This document shows positions 4,984 through 15,903 of a stretch of DNA of 64,000 bases, piece after piece. The translations under genes and the position numbers were made by a program. The notes beneath the pieces are model-generated. The model was not told the origin of the DNA. It ran no database searches and worked only from the letters and a program-made list of their open reading frames with translations. The stretch covers positions 7,116,073 through 7,180,072 of the forward strand of contig NC_087378.1 of the NCBI RefSeq assembly GCF_963675165.1. The letters run 5' to 3'. Source of the DNA: Halichondria panicea (Eukaryota > Porifera > Demospongiae > Suberitida > Halichondriidae). Numbering within the stretch: position 1 is the stretch's first letter; each line of letters begins with the position of its first letter.

Positions 4984-7900
4984 CTACATTGGAGAGTAGG
5001 TACCAAGTTTAGTTTCAAAGTCTAGCTTGAGTCTCGTCTGTAACTTGAACACCTGCGTCTTGTCATGCCACTTGAGCAGCTCTTGTGGTAATAGGAGGAC
5101 AAATGGCCACAGAAAACCAATAATCCATACATAAAAGGGAATGGAAGATAGGCTTGAAATGACCGGCAAATTTCTGACAGTGGTTGCAAACGCTTGAGAT
5201 ACAGCAAAGTATATGACTTGTAAGGTAACAACAGTAAGCAGGACAACAATATACTGCCATGATAAGAATCGCCATAGTTTCCAAATTTGTTTTGTGCGAT
5301 GGATGAATCTGAGAGAGTAAGAGGATAGATACAAACAAAGAAAGAATGATACAAGATCTTGAGCCAATAACAGTCCTTGTTCGCTGTTTCCACGCCAACC
5401 GTTCCAAGCAGACGACCCATTTCTGTTCCCCAGTAAAACATGACAGTCTGAATTAGGGATATCGTTGAAGCATATTCCCGATAGAGTCAGTCCAAATAAC
5501 AGTAAACACACAGCAATCGTAGGGACAAAGGTCACCACAAAGTCGGACAATAATAAATACTTCTCGCTCAATATTTGCTTCTTTCTAGCCGGCATCTGTG
5601 ACTTAATTCTCGGGTCTTTTGGAGTCCATAGAAACGACATTGAGATGCACGGAATAACAAAAAACACAAGCCAAAACAAGTGGCTGCCATCAAGCGGAGG
5701 AGGGAGAAAGAACAGCTCTGCCAGCAACAGTAGGAGTGCTACACTTAGATACGACCCCAGGCCATACAGCAGTCCATGTCTGATCACGCTCAGGATGTGC
5801 CTAGACTCTGTAATGAGACACAAGAGGGAGACGTCTTGGTCACGATTGAAACACAGCTGACTTGTGGTCGAGTTGAGATTCGCGGCCATTTCCAGCGGAC
5901 TAGGCCACACCCCTTCCCTGCTCAGGAGGCTGGTGCTCTGGGAGGAGGTGGAGGTACTGAGGGCACACGTTTCCGTCTCCACACACGTTGAAGTGTTGAC
6001 ATACTCAGGGATCAAACTCAAACTGATGTCAGACTGCGAAAAAATTGAGAGATTCTCCCGATTCCAAGCATTTCCCAGACAGAGGACAACTTCAGAGTTT
6101 TCCTGTAATATTTTAATCATCTCTGTGATAGTATCCGTGTTGCAATCGGTAAATAGAGGCACTTGAAGGGGAACATTGTCTACGTTCTCGATGTGCGGTC
6201 GAATACTCTCGATTCCGATCGGTAGTTTTGCTCGATAGTTGGACATGTAAGGGTTAATGACGGAATTGAGGCTGCTAGTACTGCTGCTTCTACTCAGCCC
6301 CAAACCAGAGCTGAAAATATTTTCCATTGCATATTCGACATCGGGGGCAAGAGAAATATGACAGTTCCAGTCCGTTTCCAATCCTAGTTTCAGTGCAAAT
6401 GCTTTCCCTCTGACTTCATTCTCACAAGTAAAATGCACAAAGCGAATACCGGCCACTTGCAGGTCTTCAATAAGAGCAACTACGTCCATTTTTGGCTTAA
6501 ATTGAAACGAAACGAGACCTAGAAACACTTGATTGCATTGAAGGGCTCCGAATACTTGAGAGGCTGTTTTCAGCTGAGCGGACTCTTCCACAGTCGAACA
6601 CATCATGCTCATTTCACTATAACTTCTAGACATTTCCGAGGCAGGTACAAACATTCCGATGCTCTTCTCGGGAATAGAGTTGCTTAACAACAGTGGGTTG
6701 TACGCTAGGGCAATGCAGTAGCCAGTGTTACTTCGTCTGGTATAAAACTCCAAAATGGTCGTCCGTTCCACATCGGTCATCGGCTGAAGATCTCGTCCAT
6801 CCCAGAAATCGCTACAACACGAGATAACCATATCCCCACTGCCCCTGCTCATTAAGAGATGATTGGACGAATTAACGGGCTTCAAAACGAGAGACACAAT
6901 GTGTGGTTGGATAGCATTCAAGCTACTCATAGTAACAGCAGACGACTCAGTTTTAAGACTGCGGGCGCTAAGGGGAGGGGATTCACCAAAACTGTAAAGA
7001 TAGACTTTTTTCTCGAATAAATTAGAGGCGTAATCTGACACGCCAATCTCCAGACCAAGAGAGCACGCACACGAGGTCTGGTCAACGAGGCGAATCAGCT
7101 GGGAGGAGATGCTGGGAAGTTGCCAGTTGGAGTTTTGTTTGGTTAGGTGAGCGGTTGTCAATAGGTTGACTCCTACTGGTTTGAGGGATCCCAGGTACGT
7201 CTTCCAGTTCACATCATCGAAACAAATGCCTGAACCATGCTCGAAACTTGGGGAGATGTCCAGAATCTCTTTTACGACTTGAATGGGAGAATAATCGGAA
7301 TAGGTACTGACACTGTCCGGAGTTATTAACTTAACGTCTAAAGTTTGTGCAGCTGTAGAAGAAATGGAATCTTCAATATCGAGTTTGACTGCGAGAGGGT
7401 TGGTGACCTCCATTCTGTCTTGAGAGTTTTGCATGCTTGGTGGTTGAAATGATTCTGCTTTGCTATCAGGGCCAGTGAAAGTCACTTTGACAGCGTTTTT
7501 TAGAGAGGACTGCAGCAGCTGGAGGGAGGGAATAGATAGATCAATGGTAGTGTATTGGGTAGTGGTGGTATACACAACATGTCCACAACACAGGCTTACA
7601 GCAGCATACAGTACATAGCCAGAACATTGCAGGGAAACAGCTCATCTATAACTGTATACTTACACACAACACTTGTTCTAGTACATAACACGTTGGGTAA
7701 AGGTCCAAAACAACATTTAGTTATAGTACACAAACACTAAACTACTGTATTCAGGTGGCTACCAGTCCGAGAATATTCCCCCTATCAATGTTTGTACTGT
7801 ACCTAAACATACAATTTACAGCACTCGAACATTCAGGGGAAGTCCCCATGCACACCATGTACACACACACACACGTATATACAGTACGTACCTCTTCACT

Positions 7901-9163
7901 CTGCTCCTCAGCACTCTCCATTTTGTCCAGCTGTGCCCTCTCAGCTTCCTCAAAATCCTCCGTCCTCAACACTAACACCTTCTCTGGTGTGGGGAATCCC
8001 CCAGTCAACAAGTTCTCTTTGTCCACGGCACACAATGAAGTTAAACTGCCAAGGATGTGAAAAGATCGATAGTTTGGGTAACTTGCGTGATTCCATAAAA
8101 GTTTGAACATTCGAGAGAACGTAATGAAAACTTTTTTGATTCTGTCAGCTCGTTTATTCGATGTGAAGGTTGGTTCACTCTCGATCAAAAGAGTCACTAT
8201 AGCTGTACCATAGAGATTGACGACAGTCCATACAATAGGTAGGGGTACCAGTAGAATAGGTAGCACTGTGTACACTGGTTGCCGTAGGAGCATTTCAGGC
8301 CAGCTGTCTTCAAAATCACTCGTAAGGGAGTAGTACCTGATAATGTTGTATAGTAGGGAGACCAAGTACACTATCACGGTCAGTAATTCCATTGCAGCCA
8401 TAACACGATTTCGTTCTTTGGTTAGCACAGTTTTTGATCGATGTTTCGCCACATTGGTAGTCAGCAGTGAGGTGATGGGAGTCTCTAAAACGGTCCATTT
8501 CGGTGGAGCAGATTCTGGAATAAAACTAACGGTATTACCACCGGGAATATTCACATTAGCAAATACATCGGAGGGAGGCAATTGTCCAAGTTCTAAACTG
8601 AGTTCTTTATACAATTGTGAGCTAGTCAGGAGAGAAACTTTAGCTGGAGAGGGTACCTCTGGATGCAGTTCAATCACATCACCTTCAACAAGAAGGCTGG
8701 TGGGTAGATTCACACAAGCTCGATCTCGATATGCCAAAACAGTGAAATTTCCCCTCAGAGTGGAAATGGGTGACTTTGGGTACGAACGAGCGGTCCATGG
8801 ACAATTAGTCCTAAGGAGTGGTTTGATGTGAGAGAGAAGACGTCTGATTCGTCTCGTCTTTAGTATGTACATTTCCCATACGAATAGAACAATGTTGATA
8901 ACGACAAACAGTAGTAAGATAAATGCTTGTAACAGGACTGTTGCATCCTTTCTCCCCGAAACGAAGAATTCCACAATCAGAAAAATAGCTGCTATAATAG
9001 TCAGTACACTTGAGATAAGAGCGTAGGGTGAGCGTATGATCTCACGGGGCCAGTTGACACGGCAACAGCTGATAGCGTACTCGTGTAGTTGGGTCAGTAG
9101 TCTCTCCTGGGCCTGTTGTGAGCTTAGTCCAAGAACGGCTGAGTTGTCCTGTTTACGATCCAT
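4984..9163 (-). CDS. TMEM94: TMEM94 (P-type-ATPase-like multi-pass ER membrane protein)
   Basis: Only two coding exons, 9163-7892 and 7518-4984, join in phase to give 1268 residues; the human protein is 1356 as I recall. It has four membrane spans in the N-terminal half (about residues 48-70, 75-100, 255-275 and 295-325) and about six in the last 250 residues. TMEM94 is an ER protein related to P-type ATPases and linked to magnesium handling. The phosphorylation motif of ATPases is degenerate here: CAVDKENLLT, with Asp at about 381. Other family hallmarks are SLKPVGVNLL, GIRFVHFTCENE, LGLETDWNCHISL, VPLFTDC and VVLCLGNAWN. A single intron of ~370 bp contrasts with the many-intron neighbours. 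The start ATG at 9163 is the first in frame and begins MDRKQDNSAV. Confidence 0.9.
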
Positions 9164-9703
9164 AGTCGAGGCAACGGTTCAGCCGACTGAGGATACATAG
9201 TGTATGCGTTATTGGATATAAATCACTGCATAGTTTAATACATTGGGCAGTGGGCCTGACTTTTTAATATAATGCCATGTTTTATTTAAAGAGCTATCTA
9301 CCATGAGCTACTAAATTGAGCTAGATTAGATCATTGCATTTCCCTCACATGCAGCTCTGGTAGCAGGTCCCTGAAGTCCTGTACGCAGTAAAAAACTCTT
9401 TGCAGGCCTTTCTGAAGCTCCAATCAGACTTCTTTCTTTAATACTGTTTCTCAACTCATATCATTGAAATAAAGGGAAAGGTCGTCTTTAGAACAAACTA
9501 TTAGAGCTTGCTGTTAAAAGTTGTTAAAGTTCATTACCATCTTTACCCAATTGCACCTTGCTTGCACTGAGTGGGTGGGTATACAGAAAGGGGTGTACTT
9601 TGTAGAAATTACACACACACACATACACAAAAAAACTAAATACACAAGGGTAGAGTTGTTCAGTTCCATAAATCATCTAATCGACTCCAATTCTGGATAC
9701 ACT
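9164..9703. other. Intergenic, nothing recognised
   Basis: These 540 bp lie between the 5' end of TMEM94 and the 3' end of the SHFL-Death gene, both on the minus strand. They are AT-rich with a short CA run near 9611. A plus-strand ORF at 9521-9766 shows no family motif and is probably chance. The region should contain the TMEM94 promoter, but no clear element stands out. Confidence 0.5.
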
Positions 9704-12700
9704 TTACTCTACCTCCAATTCTGCCTCCAATTCTGCAAACATAAACAAAAATTAATATCAAAATGAACATATGAACCACAATTTGTGTTGACCTTTAGCA
9801 ATCCTGCAAACTCTTTCTGCCAGAACTGCATCACCTTGTAAAGCTCCTATTAATATTTTGTACGATGCCATGAACCCGTTGGCACGGTGCCATTGGTCCA
9901 AAACACTGTGTGCTTTCATAACGGGACCAGTAAGCTGTTGATCGCTGTTAATGTCCATAATATATCCTTTTTGAACTCCCAAATTTATTGCCAACTCCCG
10001 CCAATTCGGAACCAATACAGCAATCCTTTTGAGGTGTTCACTTGAGCATTGTGTTTTCAACACTGCTTCAGAAACACCCACATGGTCAACTATAGACTGA
10101 TACGTAGGACCTACAACAGTGGGTACATGCAATGTGAAACAGGATAGCAGTTACTTAGTTACTTACCATCACTAGCTTCACTTCGGGATGAGTGTGTGGA
10201 CAAAGAGGGAGGTCTGGATGGGGGAACTTTAATATTGAACTCGATTTTTTCCTCTGTTCCTATTACCCCAAATGTGCACACTTGATGCTGTTCTGAGGTT
10301 CCGTGGATGGACATAGCGATTCGTGGAGGATAGAAACCACGCTTTTTCCTCTTTGGCAGGTCTAAAAGCTCTTGTTTAATCTGAAAGAAAATATAATTCT
10401 AACAAAGATGCTGATAGAGAGTACAGCTTACAATGCAAGGAGACGAATGGAGTACAACCTCTACTTCAGTGTTTGTGGGTAACAAAAGCTCAATTTTGTT
10501 AGCAGACAGCCGAATATGACGTGGCTCGCCATGATAACTATCTTCTTTGAACTTTTTACGTAGATAGTCTTCAAAGTCCTATAAAGTGATCATAATAATA
10601 ATTATTATTAGTATAAAATCATTATTATTATTATGGGTTTCTTACGTGCATGTACACATCACTGTCCAATGAAGCTGTAAAGAAGGCAAGGCAAGAAGGC
10701 AACAGAAAGTACAGGCAGACAACATACAGATCTTTTCGCCCTAAAAAAGAAAAAGTGAAGGCACAACAATCTATTTTGATTCACTCACTTTTCGTTTTGC
10801 GTCTTGCCAACAGTCCAAAGCAAAAGTGCCGCACTGATACTGACACCGCCGGACAGCCATCAGAATAATATGGTTTAGCAAACACATCAACTTCTTCCAT
10901 GAAAATCCATACGTTTTGCTTTTTCCGAACCGAAGGCTTATCTCGGCTTGTAAGAAAGATAATCTCGTCACTGTTCTTGATATCAGCAAAGACCTTAATC
11001 TTAAGCTCAACGTAGGATTTAAATATATGCGGTGGATGGAGCAAGTAGACAGGGCTGATGGGCTCATAATCAGAGGGAAATTCGAACGGACCCTCTAGAT
11101 CTAGACATGCTTGAACTGTCACAGAGACCTCATCACCTTGGTGGATTGCATTGGGAGGGATGGTGACATGAATTCCTTCACCGATGATATCAGCTCCATG
11201 ATGATCGACACTTTTTTGGAATTCCCTCCGCGAGAACCTAACTGGAAGGTAATCATGCTTAATCGTTGAAGAACGCTCCCAATCTGGAATGGAATGTATA
11301 ATTATAATTATGATACCTTAAGGTGACATATTTTCACAGGTAGATTTGTTTGCGTTTTTACAGTTTTGTACATTTTGCGGTATAATTTTTTGCGAAATGT
11401 CGATCTGGATACATTAAACAAGAGGGCGGCCAATTATATGCGAGTACTAATTTTTGCGATTTTACTCTCATTCGCAGAAATAGCAGAAATTAATACACGC
11501 GAAAATATGTCACCTTAAGGTACACATCACAAGAAATTACCATGAGAAGTTGTGTGAACAATAGCAGCAGTGTTCTTTGCACTGTCAGCAGTGCTCACTG
11601 TGTCGATGTTACTAGCAGTACCGATGCCCGAGTCGTGGATGGTAGACACTTGAGAGGAGAGCTTCTCAGAACCGGCGGACCCAGTCTCAGAGGGCTCAGG
11701 CGTTTTGTCATCATTCTCAGAAGAATCATCACAAGAATGCGTTCTCAATTCACGTTTTCGAGTTGGATGATTGGAGCTTGTAGCGTCATCACTATCAAGA
11801 TCTGAATCTGAAGAGTGCATTGTTGTCAGTGAGCCTTCTCGTACAAAGTCGTCATCAGATTGATCAAGCGTAGAGTCAGAGTCAGTTCCATTGTCACTGC
11901 TGGAGTAGTGTGAATCATCATCACTACTGGCAACTGTTGATTCGTCATCACCGAAGTCTGAACTGCCTGCTTGGGTCAGGAATGTCCTTTCGGTTGATCC
12001 TGTTGAAACATGCGCGGTACTTGGGTTAAAAATACACTTTCTCTTTTTACGTTCATACGGGGAAACATCATCAAGAGTAGCTACATTCTGAGGAGATTCT
12101 TCTTCAGTTGGCCATGGGTCAAATAGTTTAGTCTCAGGATCTACGGGTTTGCGTATCTTATGTGTTTTACGAAACCTGGGATGAATATGTGGATGATGAA
12201 CCATCTCATAGCATTTTTTGCATTTACAAGCCAAGGTAGCATGACAAAATCGAAAGAATATGCGGTTGCAATTTTTATTCTGGCAAATATAGCGACCGCG
12301 ACCAAACTCTTTGTCTCGAGGGAGGGCATCGTATTTTACCCAACAGTCTTTGCACGTAGATACCCGTTTTGTGGTGAAGACTTTTCTCCACCAAAAATGA
12401 TTACAACGGAGACAAGCGAATTCCCTAAGTTCAGACACTTCATTAAGCATGTTATGCTGTCTGAGAACAGCCTCTGTTAAGAGGGGTTGTCTAGGATCAA
12501 CACCACCTTCAAGAATTTTAATCTGATCTTCCTTCTTCATAGATCGTAAGCCTTTTCTTGAACTATGAGCTTTGGCATTTTTGTCACCAGGCTACATGTA
12601 CGTATAGAGAAAAATGGTAAACATTGGTTACAAAATTATGCTTTTACGGTACCTTGTAGAAATGTTGCTGTATGTTTCTCAGTGCTTTATTGACACCACT

Positions 12701-12935
12701 CTTGGGCCCAATAACTTCAAAACGAACACCAGCAGGCACAGTTCGAACATCAATTTTACATTGTGTGTATCCTCCTATGACTTTGCACATTGCAAATCGA
12801 TTCCCTTTATTCAGGTATTTTTCTTTTAGCTCCACACATTGAATAACCAATTCCTGTGGTACAGATGGGATAGAGAGGGTCATCTACATTGCATTGCATC
12901 ACATGCACACAAACTACCTTTTGATGTGTTGCCAT
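9704..12935 (-). CDS. SHFL-like zinc ribbon + ZU5 + UPA + Death domain fusion protein
   Basis: Nine exons join in phase: 12935-12918, 12883-12653, 12591-11541, 11283-10789, 10674-10646, 10578-10432, 10380-10167, 10110-9793 and 9732-9704, giving about 843 residues. Residues ~115-300 match vertebrate Shiftless (SHFL): LTEAVLRQ, FACLRCNHFWWRKV, CKDCWVKYDALP, DKEFGRGRY, further CxxC pairs, and FNPSTAHVSTGSTER. SHFL binds RNA and blocks programmed -1 frameshifting and some virus replication. A Ser/Asp-rich linker (300-430) follows. Next come a ZU5 domain (~434-598; GIHVTIPPNAIHQGDEV), a UPA-like segment (~600-730) and a Death domain (~755-833; LVPNWRELAINLGV). ZU5-UPA-Death is the known supramodule of UNC5, PIDD and ankyrins. 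There is no signal peptide or membrane span. The last intron uses a weak donor (gtcaac); without it the frame ends at 9758. Exon 5 is only 29 nt and is the least certain. Confidence 0.8.
11316..11520. mobile_element. MITE between the SHFL and ZU5 exons
   Basis: Inverted ends ccttaaggtgacatattttc and its complement gaaaatatgtcaccttaagg lie at 11316 and 11520. TA dinucleotides flank them (11314-11315 and 11521-11522). Both tips carry the palindrome ccttaagg. The TA flanks suggest a Tc1/mariner-type origin (inference). It fills most of the intron that joins the two halves of the fusion gene. Confidence 0.65.
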
Positions 12936-13080: not shown

Positions 13081-15903
13081 TGTCACTGGAAAAATGGTCC
13101 TGAAAAAACTGGTCCGGGGACCAATTTTTTCAATGAAAATTTTGGTCCGGGGACTGAAATTTTCAGAAAAAATTGGTCCCCCCCTGAAATAATCAGTCCG
13201 CCTAGACAAAAAGACGTCTCTGGACCAGGAGCGTATGTAGGGCAACCTAGGGTCCTCTCCACATCATATTACGACATACAGATACGCACATACCCATGTA
13301 CAGGGATGCAGTCACATAATATTCAGGAACTATAGCAGCCTAGCTTGTCAGCCAGGTGTACTAGATAGAGCTGCAGCATGTGAACCTTGAGGCCTCCACA
13401 TTCTTAAGACTCAAGTGTTTCAAAAGAAAGATCTATTAACGATTGACAGTTTTATAGCTTGATAAAATAATGTTACTACTACTACGTATAATTATAATGC
13501 CGAAGTTCTGTCCGGGAATAGATACAGACGGTACGGGTGCATGGTTCATAGTTTATGGACGGTTAACAGTTACGTCTTAGACTGGTTTAGCACTGCACTG
13601 CATACAGTGCCAAACAGCTGATTTTTTGAGAAAAGCAGCAGGAACGTTCACACAGGTGTCATAATGATATACCACTCCTTGCATGTGCTGCATTCCACCC
13701 AGTTTTCCATAGTCGCCATCTCTGGCATTCCAGGTGAGCGGAGGTTGTGTGAGCGGAGTCTTCAAGAGGGGATTCCAGGTGAGCAGAGGTTATGTGAGCA
13801 GAGTCCTCAGGAGGAGAGTGAGCAGAGTCCATTGATCCAGAATCGCAAGTAGGTGGATCGTTGTATGGCTTGAGATGGGGTCCTGACACTAGTACTGTCT
13901 TTGATCCATCGCTTATCTCATATGCACCTCGTGGTTTAACAGAGATGATTTTGTAAGGGCCAGTGTACCTCTTCTTCAGCTTCCCACCTTTTGTCTTTTT
14001 GCGAGTATGATTTAGTTTCAGGACTAATTGACCAACCATATATCTCTTAGGCTGTGCATGTTTCTTATCATACAGTTCCTTCTGTTTCTTTTGGGCGGCA
14101 AGAATATAGGTTTTTGCTTGGCTCAGTCGTACATGATTGTGTTCACGAGTACGTGTAACATCTAGATTGGGCATTTGCTGCTGATACTCGCGAGCAGCTT
14201 GGTCAGGAGAAATGCTTGAGACTTCTACATCAATGGGAAGAGTAGCTTGACGATTGAACATGAGTTCAAAAGGAGTAAACTTTGTTGAATTATGACGAGA
14301 GGTATTGTATGCGAAAACACATGTGTCCAGGTAGCTACTCCAGTCTTCTAGCATGTTTTGCAACGTCTGATTGAAACGCTTGTCCAAGCCGTTAGTCTAT
14401 AAAATAATATTATAGTTGAAAATACATTTTAAATATAGGATATATCAGGAGGATATGCACCTATGTATCCTCCGCTATGCCATGATTACTTTGAGGCATA
14501 GCCAAGGGGTATATAACCACGGTATAGCGGAGAATATAATTATGGGTGCATATCCTCTGAGTACAAGTGTGATATAATTATAGTTTTAAAACTGTAGTGC
14601 ATACCTGAGGGTGGTAAGGAGTTATAGGGGGCCCTGGATCCCCAGGAGAGAACAGAGACTATAGTGTCTAAATCATTGTTGAATTCACGTCCTTGATCTG
14701 AGAGAATTACCCGAGGCAGACCCATTCTCATAAATACCTAAGAAGGAAAAGTGTGTGATCATTATTTATTGCCCGTGCGTGCATGCAGTGGGTGCATTGT
14801 GCATGTGTGTGGCATTCATACATAATTTATACCTTGAACAATGATGTTGCTACTGATGATGCACTCTTGTCAGGTGTAGGAATAGCTTCTATATACCCAC
14901 TTGGTAAAGTAATCGCTCATGGTTAAGATGTAGCGGGAACCATCGTTAGCAGTTGGAGAGAGAGGACCAACAAAATCAATTCCTAGCATGTACCAAGGAA
15001 ACTGCACACAGATGGGGTGAAGTTCGGGCCTGCCAGTAGTTAGCTTTCGATTAACTCGCTGGCAAATGTCACAAGTAGACACCTATAAAGTAGACACATA
15101 AATATTGAGGGAAGGTATTCCTGTTTGATAACTTTGTATACATGTAGGTGTAACAATAATACAGAACCAAGTTGACATCCCAATAATTATAGATATTGAC
15201 TATTATGTGCACTAAAATACAAGGACAGATGAGCAAATCTACTAACCATTTCTTTCACATCCTTTACCATGCCATGCCACATGTAACGCTCCTTAATTCG
15301 GGCAAGTGTGCGAGTCACCCCCATATGTCCAGATGTTTCATCAACATGGCAAGCGAACAGTATTTTCTTTCTCTCTCTTCGGTTGATAATGTATCGGATC
15401 AACACATCATCCTAAAATATCGAGAAGGCAATAATTATATAGGAGCTATAATACCAGAAGAATCGAACATAGATGACGCGTTATATATACCTAGAGATGG
15501 CCACTCCTGTAATGATTGTAATTTCAACTACATTACAGATACACCAACTCACTCTGTCCTTTCTCTTGTGTTTGTACATGAAGTCACCATTGTTCACTAC
15601 AAACTGCTTGGCCTTTCTTCTGATGACCCTTTTTCTTCCCTCTTTACAGTTATCAGGGTACTCCTTGGTGGTGACATAGTGGAATACCTCTTCTATCAGC
15701 TCTTCCTCCCCTGTGTGTAGCTCAAGCTCCATAAGAATAACTGGAACAAACTTTTCAGCTGCATCAAAAGCTGTGCAAGTTGCGCAGCAACCAGGACTAC
15801 TTTTTTCGAGGGCGGACCAACATTATCAGCTAAAATTGGTCCGGGGGACCGATAATTTCAGTCCGGGGACTGAAATTATCGGCGGACCAAAATTTTCGTG
15901 ACA
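13081..15903 (-). mobile_element. Fossil integrase-bearing element, Ginger/gypsy-integrase type
   Basis: Between tgtcac (13081) and gtgaca (15898-15903), with related subterminal repeats built on ggtccgggg at 13110-13195 and 15800-15895, lies a minus-strand integrase-related region. Recognisable parts, in order from 15732 down to 13659, are an N-terminal H2C2-type zinc finger region, a DDE-type core and a C-terminal domain. The coding parts are separated by gaps that look like introns, which fits Ginger-type integrases and their domesticated relatives (KRBA2/GIN-like) better than an LTR retrotransposon. I find no reverse transcriptase, no LTRs and no clear target duplication. It looks incomplete, with a few interruptions. 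Age cannot be judged without other copies. Treat as a fossil. Confidence 0.6.
14446..14560. mobile_element. MITE nested in the integrase element
   Basis: A 115-bp inverted-repeat element. The left arm starts caggaggatatgcacctatg and the right arm ends with its near complement gggtgcatatcctctga. The arms are about 38 bp with a short spacer. It sits in a non-coding gap of the fossil integrase element, so it is the younger of the two. Confidence 0.6.

Follow-up and report, generated by a model that had tools for sequence, protein, structure and literature searches.

Results

Gene structure and domains

The window analysed here is a 64,000-nucleotide (nt) stretch of the genome of the sponge Halichondria panicea (contig NC_087378.1, here C2, positions 7116073-7180072). 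It holds, on the minus strand, a nine-exon gene that very probably joins a Shiftless-type (SHFL, UPF0515) zinc module to a ZU5 domain and a Death domain. The exons run from an ATG at 12935 to a TAA at 9704 and splice into a 2568-nt coding frame (855 codons plus stop). All eight introns have GT-AG borders, and the running phases after exons 1-8 are 0, 0, 1, 1, 0, 0, 1 and 1. This confirms the phase-compatible chain that a preliminary description of this DNA had proposed at exactly 12935-9704. Searches of the whole genome (131 Mb, 39 contigs) located two paralogous loci, L007 on contig C1 and L008 on C2 at 8.29 Mb, which serve for comparison below. The features of the gene are as follows.

12918..12935, minus strand: exon 1, MATHQK, donor gtagtt; the start is kept at L007 as MATHQE
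12653..12853, minus strand: exon 2, a 67-amino-acid (aa) N-terminal part from the gene model, of a family without a Pfam match
11541..12591, minus strand: exon 3, SHFL/UPF0515 zinc module (PF15135) and acidic Ser/Asp-rich linker, with a phase-1 donor at its end
12211..12420, minus strand: zinc-ligand core with FACLRC, CKDC, CQNKNC and CKKC, from the SHFL exon alignment
11992..12027, minus strand: NPSTAHVSTGST block common to human SHFL, from the alignment to 9kbo
11617..11634, minus strand: DSGIGT, resembling a DSGxxS phosphodegron, from the motif count among SHFL exons
11284..11540, minus strand: SHFL-to-ZU5 intron, 257 nt, phase 1 (88 nt in L007, 50 nt in L008)
11314..11522, no strand assigned: 209-nt repeat with inverted ends inside this intron, resembling a miniature inverted-repeat transposable element (MITE), from the genome search
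10789..11283, minus strand: exon 4, ZU5 domain (PF00791, 25.4 bits, E 1.8e-5)
10820..10828, minus strand: HFC, predicted ZU5 self-cleavage site (His-Phe/Cys), in 19/19 aligned rows
10646..10740, minus strand: exon 5 of the gene model, beginning of the UPA-position region (PF17217 not detected)
10432..10578, minus strand: exon 6 of the gene model, UPA-position region
10167..10380, minus strand: exon 7 of the gene model, UPA-position region and PPSRPPSLS linker
9793..10110, minus strand: exon 8, Death domain (PF00531, 22.6 and 22.1 bits, cut-off 22.6)
9704..9732, minus strand: exon 9, final codons and stop; an equivalent is present at L007

A Pfam scan of the 855-aa product at E up to 1 returned three families only, UPF0515/SHFL, ZU5 and Death. 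The SHFL match was the strongest (PF15135, 77.8 bits against a cut-off of 29.8, E 1.2e-21, residues 89-282 of the whole protein); the preliminary description had named the loss of this similarity in profile searches as grounds for abandoning its claim, and the similarity persists. ZU5 passed its cut-off of 21 bits both with exon 4 alone and with the whole protein (21.7 bits, residues 448-535). Death was borderline with exon 8 alone and clear in the other copies (26.7 bits in L007 and 29.7 in L008). Three of the four domains first named are supported, Death mainly through these other copies; the fourth, UPA, is a label by position, taken up below. The central proposal, one gene uniting an SHFL module with ZU5 and Death, is well supported by the gene model, by the profile matches and by the repeat of the order at the two further loci, and the fusion is very probably real and recurring. 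The N-terminal exon, the degron-like motif, the HFC site and the paralogues described below were not part of the preliminary description.

Exon 2 had no family match in a Pfam scan, and a genome search with it found itself and the L007 copy only (59%, frameshifted). The exon at the same place in L008, missed by that search, resembles it by eye. Modelled alone, exon 2 gave three strands followed by a helix at low confidence (mean predicted local distance difference test score, pLDDT, 57.4). The strand-strand-strand-helix order is similar to that of a double-stranded-RNA-binding domain, an identity we do not claim since no Pfam family matched. A YdaS match in exons 1-2 of L008 was weak, under the family cut-off, and taken as chance.

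Paralogous loci and relatives on other contigs

The PF15135 profile found six places in the genome: the three SHFL-ZU5-Death loci and three short tandem SHFL-type frames above the cut-off at L009 (7920-9971; C2, 8.19 Mb). No ZU5 match lay near the L009 frames among the matches listed, and they are perhaps stand-alone forms. L007 has the same exon order as the window gene, and its phases agree as well if exon 2 is disregarded. Its exon 2 measures 205 nt compared to 201 in the window, which shifts the frame; without exon 2 the frame is open over 806 aa. In L008 the order is again the same, and exons 1-8 have equivalently placed borders; this copy is broken, with the SHFL part out of frame and a TAG inside the ZU5 exon.

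The genome has 32 Death matches, counting the one in the window. Only at the three loci is such a match preceded, within 9 kb and on the same strand, by SHFL. The window ZU5 is 78% identical to that of L007 and 51% to that of L008, with the next best match at 30%, so that its only two close relatives in the genome both lie in SHFL loci. Because the order is the same at three loci and close relatives of the ZU5 occur only there, the SHFL-ZU5-Death set has probably been copied as a unit.

ZU5 itself has at least 61 matches in the genome. Two further ZU5-Death loci, L067 (1401-5198) and L068, have Kelch-type frames upstream, confirmed by Pfam in L067; L068 reads alike, its Pfam scan covering the ZU5 only. 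The distance from ZU5 to Death exon in both (~1.1-1.2 kb) is as in the window. The SHFL gene may be one of several sensors set on a common ZU5-Death output.

A protein search with the SHFL exon gave 35 matches including the window (P0001), and a search with a profile built from ZU5 exons gave 20; all are exon-sized frames from contigs. For six of the 20 ZU5 exons, the longest contig has exactly the same size as that of an SHFL exon (5535, 8218, 14304, 39122, 474804 and 1115423 bases) and is presumably the same contig. The four smallest would then mean tight SHFL-ZU5 linkage and the 1115423-base contig a loose one; the latter may hold several copies, and P0003 occurs on three contigs. Fourteen of the 20 ZU5 and 29 of the 35 SHFL matches have no partner by contig match. 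Relatives with open SHFL and open ZU5 exons do exist on other contigs. By eye, the frame of 16 of the 26 exons P0001-P0026 continues beyond a Gly into residues that vary from row to row, presumably a phase-1 donor read through. SHFL and ZU5 identities co-vary over eight loci (five of the six contig pairs, the window, L007 and stand-ins for L008) with r = 0.84, a value reached in 3 of 5000 shuffles. Scans of genome and viral contig collections for relatives gave 13 and 6 pattern matches, none of which was confirmed.

Six of the SHFL-like matches (P0027, P0030 and P0032-P0035) end in a short acidic tail, and some of them have several CxxC units in a row. They are perhaps stand-alone family forms.

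The SHFL-to-ZU5 junction

The preliminary description had left room for two separate transcripts, one ending near 11540 and the next starting near 11283. A pair of neighbouring genes, an SHFL gene ending at 11527 followed by a ZU5-Death gene, would fit the stop that exon 3 meets at 11527 when read through unspliced, and the 257-nt gap is long for this gene, whose other introns measure 48-67 nt. A search of a 5.8-billion protein set with the whole protein, in which the 7993 best word-sharing candidates were scored, also returned no fused frame.

The gap consists, however, of 48 nt plus the 209-nt repeat, and the corresponding introns of the paralogues measure 88 and 50 nt. The repeat was scored at 40 genome places including the window one, at 97-100% identity (514 candidates at first look), and its inverted ends of 29 nt are 90% complementary; it looks like a recently active MITE-like element. 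The long gap that allowed the two-gene reading thus arose because this repeat enlarged a 48-nt intron. Moreover, the ZU5 exon has no in-frame ATG ahead of the domain, phase 1 matches across the junction, and SHFL and ZU5 exons lie on contigs of equal size elsewhere. With no ATG, a repeat-enlarged intron and a junction that recurs in two loci, we reject two neighbouring genes as unlikely, leaving them almost no weight.

Two neighbouring stretches of the window were also noted. A retroelement-like fragment lies upstream of the gene at 13659-14396; its Tf2-1-like SH3 match falls short of the cut-off. Downstream, at 7751-9178, is an open frame that contains hydrophobic stretches and matched no Pfam family at E 0.01.

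Selection

We compared the window gene with L007 by the method of Nei and Gojobori over five stretches, exons 1, 2 and 9 lying outside them. The ratio of nonsynonymous to synonymous substitution rates (dN/dS, with 95% bootstrap limits) was 0.31 (0.19-0.48) for the SHFL core, 0.45 (0.27-0.74) for the linker, 0.40 (0.23-0.65) for ZU5, 0.47 (0.26-0.86) for the UPA position and 0.30 (0.15-0.57) for Death. Every bootstrap upper limit is below 1, and purifying selection acts on all five.

These ratios bear on two other explanations of the locus. The frameshifted exon 2 of L007, together with the out-of-frame SHFL part and the TAG in the ZU5 exon of L008, would suit a family of pseudogenes in decay that retains little function, and the family may indeed be decaying in this genome. 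The window copy is nevertheless open over 855 aa, its dN/dS is 0.30-0.47 in the tested stretches, and relatives on other contigs have open SHFL and ZU5 exons; we consider a pseudogene family of little function very improbable.

Alternatively, the product could be for the most part a direct effector of the SHFL type, blocking frameshifting or translation of foreign RNA, with a ZU5-Death tail that serves only for oligomerisation or localisation. No domain gives a stronger profile match than SHFL, which also has a low dN/dS, and passages of PMC11055011 describe human SHFL as tending toward oligomers. Yet Death is equally constrained (0.30), and the short SHFL genes at L009 could already serve such a purpose, which makes a mainly direct effector quite improbable.

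The Shiftless module and its linker

Human SHFL (PDB 9kbo) was the sole PDB match at E up to 1, with E 3e-14 for the whole protein and 2.2e-14 for exon 3. We aligned the window SHFL exon with 28 of the 35 protein-search matches, giving 29 rows, and also to 9kbo. At least 90% of the 29 exons carry each of eight zinc-type Cys residues (C60/63, C80/83, C103/108 and C124/127); the third Cys pair of the window module has a four-residue spacing. The STGST block was present in all 29.

The stand-alone form with a Glu-rich C-terminal helix that characterises human SHFL was not found here, as exon 3 continues into ZU5 in the gene model. The linker had no helix in the structure model of the SHFL exon, a low-confidence result (mean pLDDT 53.9); the models of this exon and of exon 2 are too weak for a fold claim. 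Passages of PMC11055011 give human SHFL as a 291-aa protein with an alpha-helix at its end, and tie its core domain to ribosome association and the binding of frameshifting RNA.

Within the linker, DSGxx[ST] occurs in 20 of the 26 exons P0001-P0026 and in 22 of all 35 matches. The DSGxxS phosphodegron is the motif of I-kappa-B and beta-catenin, and we take DSGIGT to be degron-like on the strength of this resemblance.

The ZU5 domain and the HFC site

The ZU5 exon terminates in VRHFCFGLLARR. HFC was found in 17 of the 20 ZU5 matches; of the other three, P0052 and P0056 stop short of it, and the frame of P0041 is lost at this point. It is invariant in the 19 aligned rows and also present in L008. 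The alignment has nine invariant columns, with several rows lacking the N-terminal part, which favours columns near the HFC end. HFC would correspond to the terminal F/[S,T,C] site of autoproteolytic ZU5 domains, being placed by position and not by alignment to PIDD. Passages of PMC3210808 describe self-cleavage of PIDD at HF/S and of CARD8 and NLRP1 at SF/S, with Ser, Thr or Cys as the nucleophile in such reactions, and Leu in UNC5b at the equivalent of the buried Phe.

The same site admits an explanation in which the fusion is real and the ZU5 stays uncut: ZU5, middle region and Death would be closed together until ligand binding by SHFL opens them, and HFC would be structural. A closed state of this kind is formed by UNC5, in which ZU5, the middle region and Death fold together. 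The window gene has Cys where PIDD carries Ser, 11 of the 30 ZU5 loci examined contain HF[SC] (the window is among them, and the position of the motif was judged without alignment), and ZU5-Death genes in this genome can bear other N-terminal parts such as Kelch; HFC may be a fold feature. Its invariance in 19 of 19 rows speaks for a cut site instead, as does the Leu that UNC5b has in place of the buried Phe, according to passages of PMC3210808. We judge an uncut ZU5 to be somewhat unlikely.

Discussion

A candidate sensor with a Death-domain output

Our tentative reading, to which we give a little less than an even chance, is that the locus holds one gene for a cytoplasmic sensor of the PIDD/CARD8/NLRP1 kind, with the Shiftless-type module as its sensing half. 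Starting from the fusion as a gene model, the recurring exon phases, the purifying selection and the conserved HFC, all of which come from the sequence directly, we infer the functional steps as follows. The zinc module would engage RNA or stalled or frameshifting ribosomes. ZU5 would cut itself at HF/C, and the N-terminal half (SHFL, acidic linker and ZU5) would stay clamped on the C-terminal half (UPA-position region and Death). Phosphorylation of DSGxxT would then target the N-terminal half for degradation; the Death fragment, once free, would join a Death-domain partner, leading to cell death or immune signalling. In CARD8 and NLRP1, passages of PMC7794386 report, degradation of the N-terminal fragment frees a UPA-CARD fragment. 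The fully specified version, a counterpart of the NLRP1/CARD8 inflammasome built with a Death domain, in which Shiftless watches frameshifting or foreign RNA, ZU5 cuts itself at HF/C and a phosphodegron releases the Death fragment, we regard as unlikely.

A number of results weigh against the sensor reading, among them the Cys at the cut site, the 11 of 30 loci with HF[SC], the missing fused frame and the possible decay of the family described above. PF17217 (UPA) had no match in the whole protein, nor in the window copy, L007 or L008. A PDB search with a profile of the ZU5-to-Death part of the window and L007 returned no UPA structure; its best row, over the Death part, was 1wxp (THO complex subunit 1, presumably a death domain) at E 0.091. 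Comparing profiles, we found no significant similarity to the corresponding region of two other ZU5-Death genes in this genome. The genome-wide PF17217 search is uninformative, finding no match anywhere, controls included. The stretch between ZU5 and Death is conserved and constrained; its UPA name is unproven and rests on position. In the whole window protein Death scored 17.8 bits (residues 767-832), below the cut-off of 22.6. PF00791 at E 0.01 covered only 9 of the 19 aligned ZU5 rows, and the 19-row ZU5 profile matched no PDB chain at E up to 1. The DSG motif may be partly compositional, the linker being Ser/Asp-rich. Finally, a heading in PMC11055011 describes RNA and ribosome binding by human SHFL as dispensable for its antiviral activity.

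If the sensor reading is right, Shiftless proteins would have an ancient sensing role tied to cell suicide, besides direct inhibition, and the detection of abnormal RNA or translation could be passed on directly as a cell-death signal. The conserved fusion to a ZU5-Death output suggests that the older job of Shiftless may have included sensing, and animals would gain in it a translation-linked sensor as a further means by which they may couple virus detection with cell death. The reading predicts that self-cleavage should depend on a single Cys at a defined position and release on a single short motif.

Comparison with known systems

In the parts of the literature consulted, Shiftless appears as a vertebrate restriction factor working alone. 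A literature search, with subscription papers outside its reach, found no paper containing both Shiftless and ZU5, and another none uniting SHFL, ribosomal frameshifting and Porifera. Among the matches listed in wider searches, no title or abstract start described an SHFL-ZU5-Death fusion, and C19orf66 with invertebrate returned only papers on other topics, judged by title and abstract start. The words ortholog, homolog, metazoa, invertebrate, phylogen and conserved are all absent from the text of PMC10747187. Passages of PMC8195603 report that TRADD-N proteins carrying death-fold parts are greatly expanded in Amphimedon, and describe fusions to a UPA-Zu5 module, while passages of PMC12909245 mention NACHT-Zu5 in early animals; SHFL is not mentioned in the parts of either paper that we consulted.

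The window module resembles vertebrate SHFL (Shiftless, C19orf66, UPF0515; 9kbo) in the UPF0515 profile, the Cys pairs, WW(R/K) after the first pair and an NPSxxHxSTGST-like block. It differs in being one exon of a larger predicted protein and in running into an acidic linker. The Kelch-ZU5-Death genes L067 and L068 share the spacing of ZU5 and Death exons (~1.1-1.2 kb); they have Kelch repeats upstream in place of SHFL, and their ZU5 exons are absent among the matches listed for the window ZU5 query.

UNC5 is a membrane receptor. Its ZU5-to-Death order, as passages of PMC3210808 give it, is shared by the window protein, whereas UNC5b has Leu where the window site has Phe. Like PIDD1, the window protein has ZU5 ahead of Death and an HF/S-type site, here HF/C, at the ZU5 end. 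Compared with the PIDD layout in passages of PMC3210808, it has SHFL in place of the leucine-rich repeats (LRR), one ZU5 instead of two, and no detected UPA; neither an N-terminal LRR nor a second ZU5 appeared in the Pfam scan at E up to 1. CARD8 and NLRP1, with their FIIND, likewise have a ZU5 with an F/[SC] site followed by a death-fold end (passages of PMC3210808 and PMC7794386), and CARD8 also starts with a disordered region (abstract of PMC9213247). In place of their C-terminal CARD, the window protein has Death, and its N-terminal module is SHFL.

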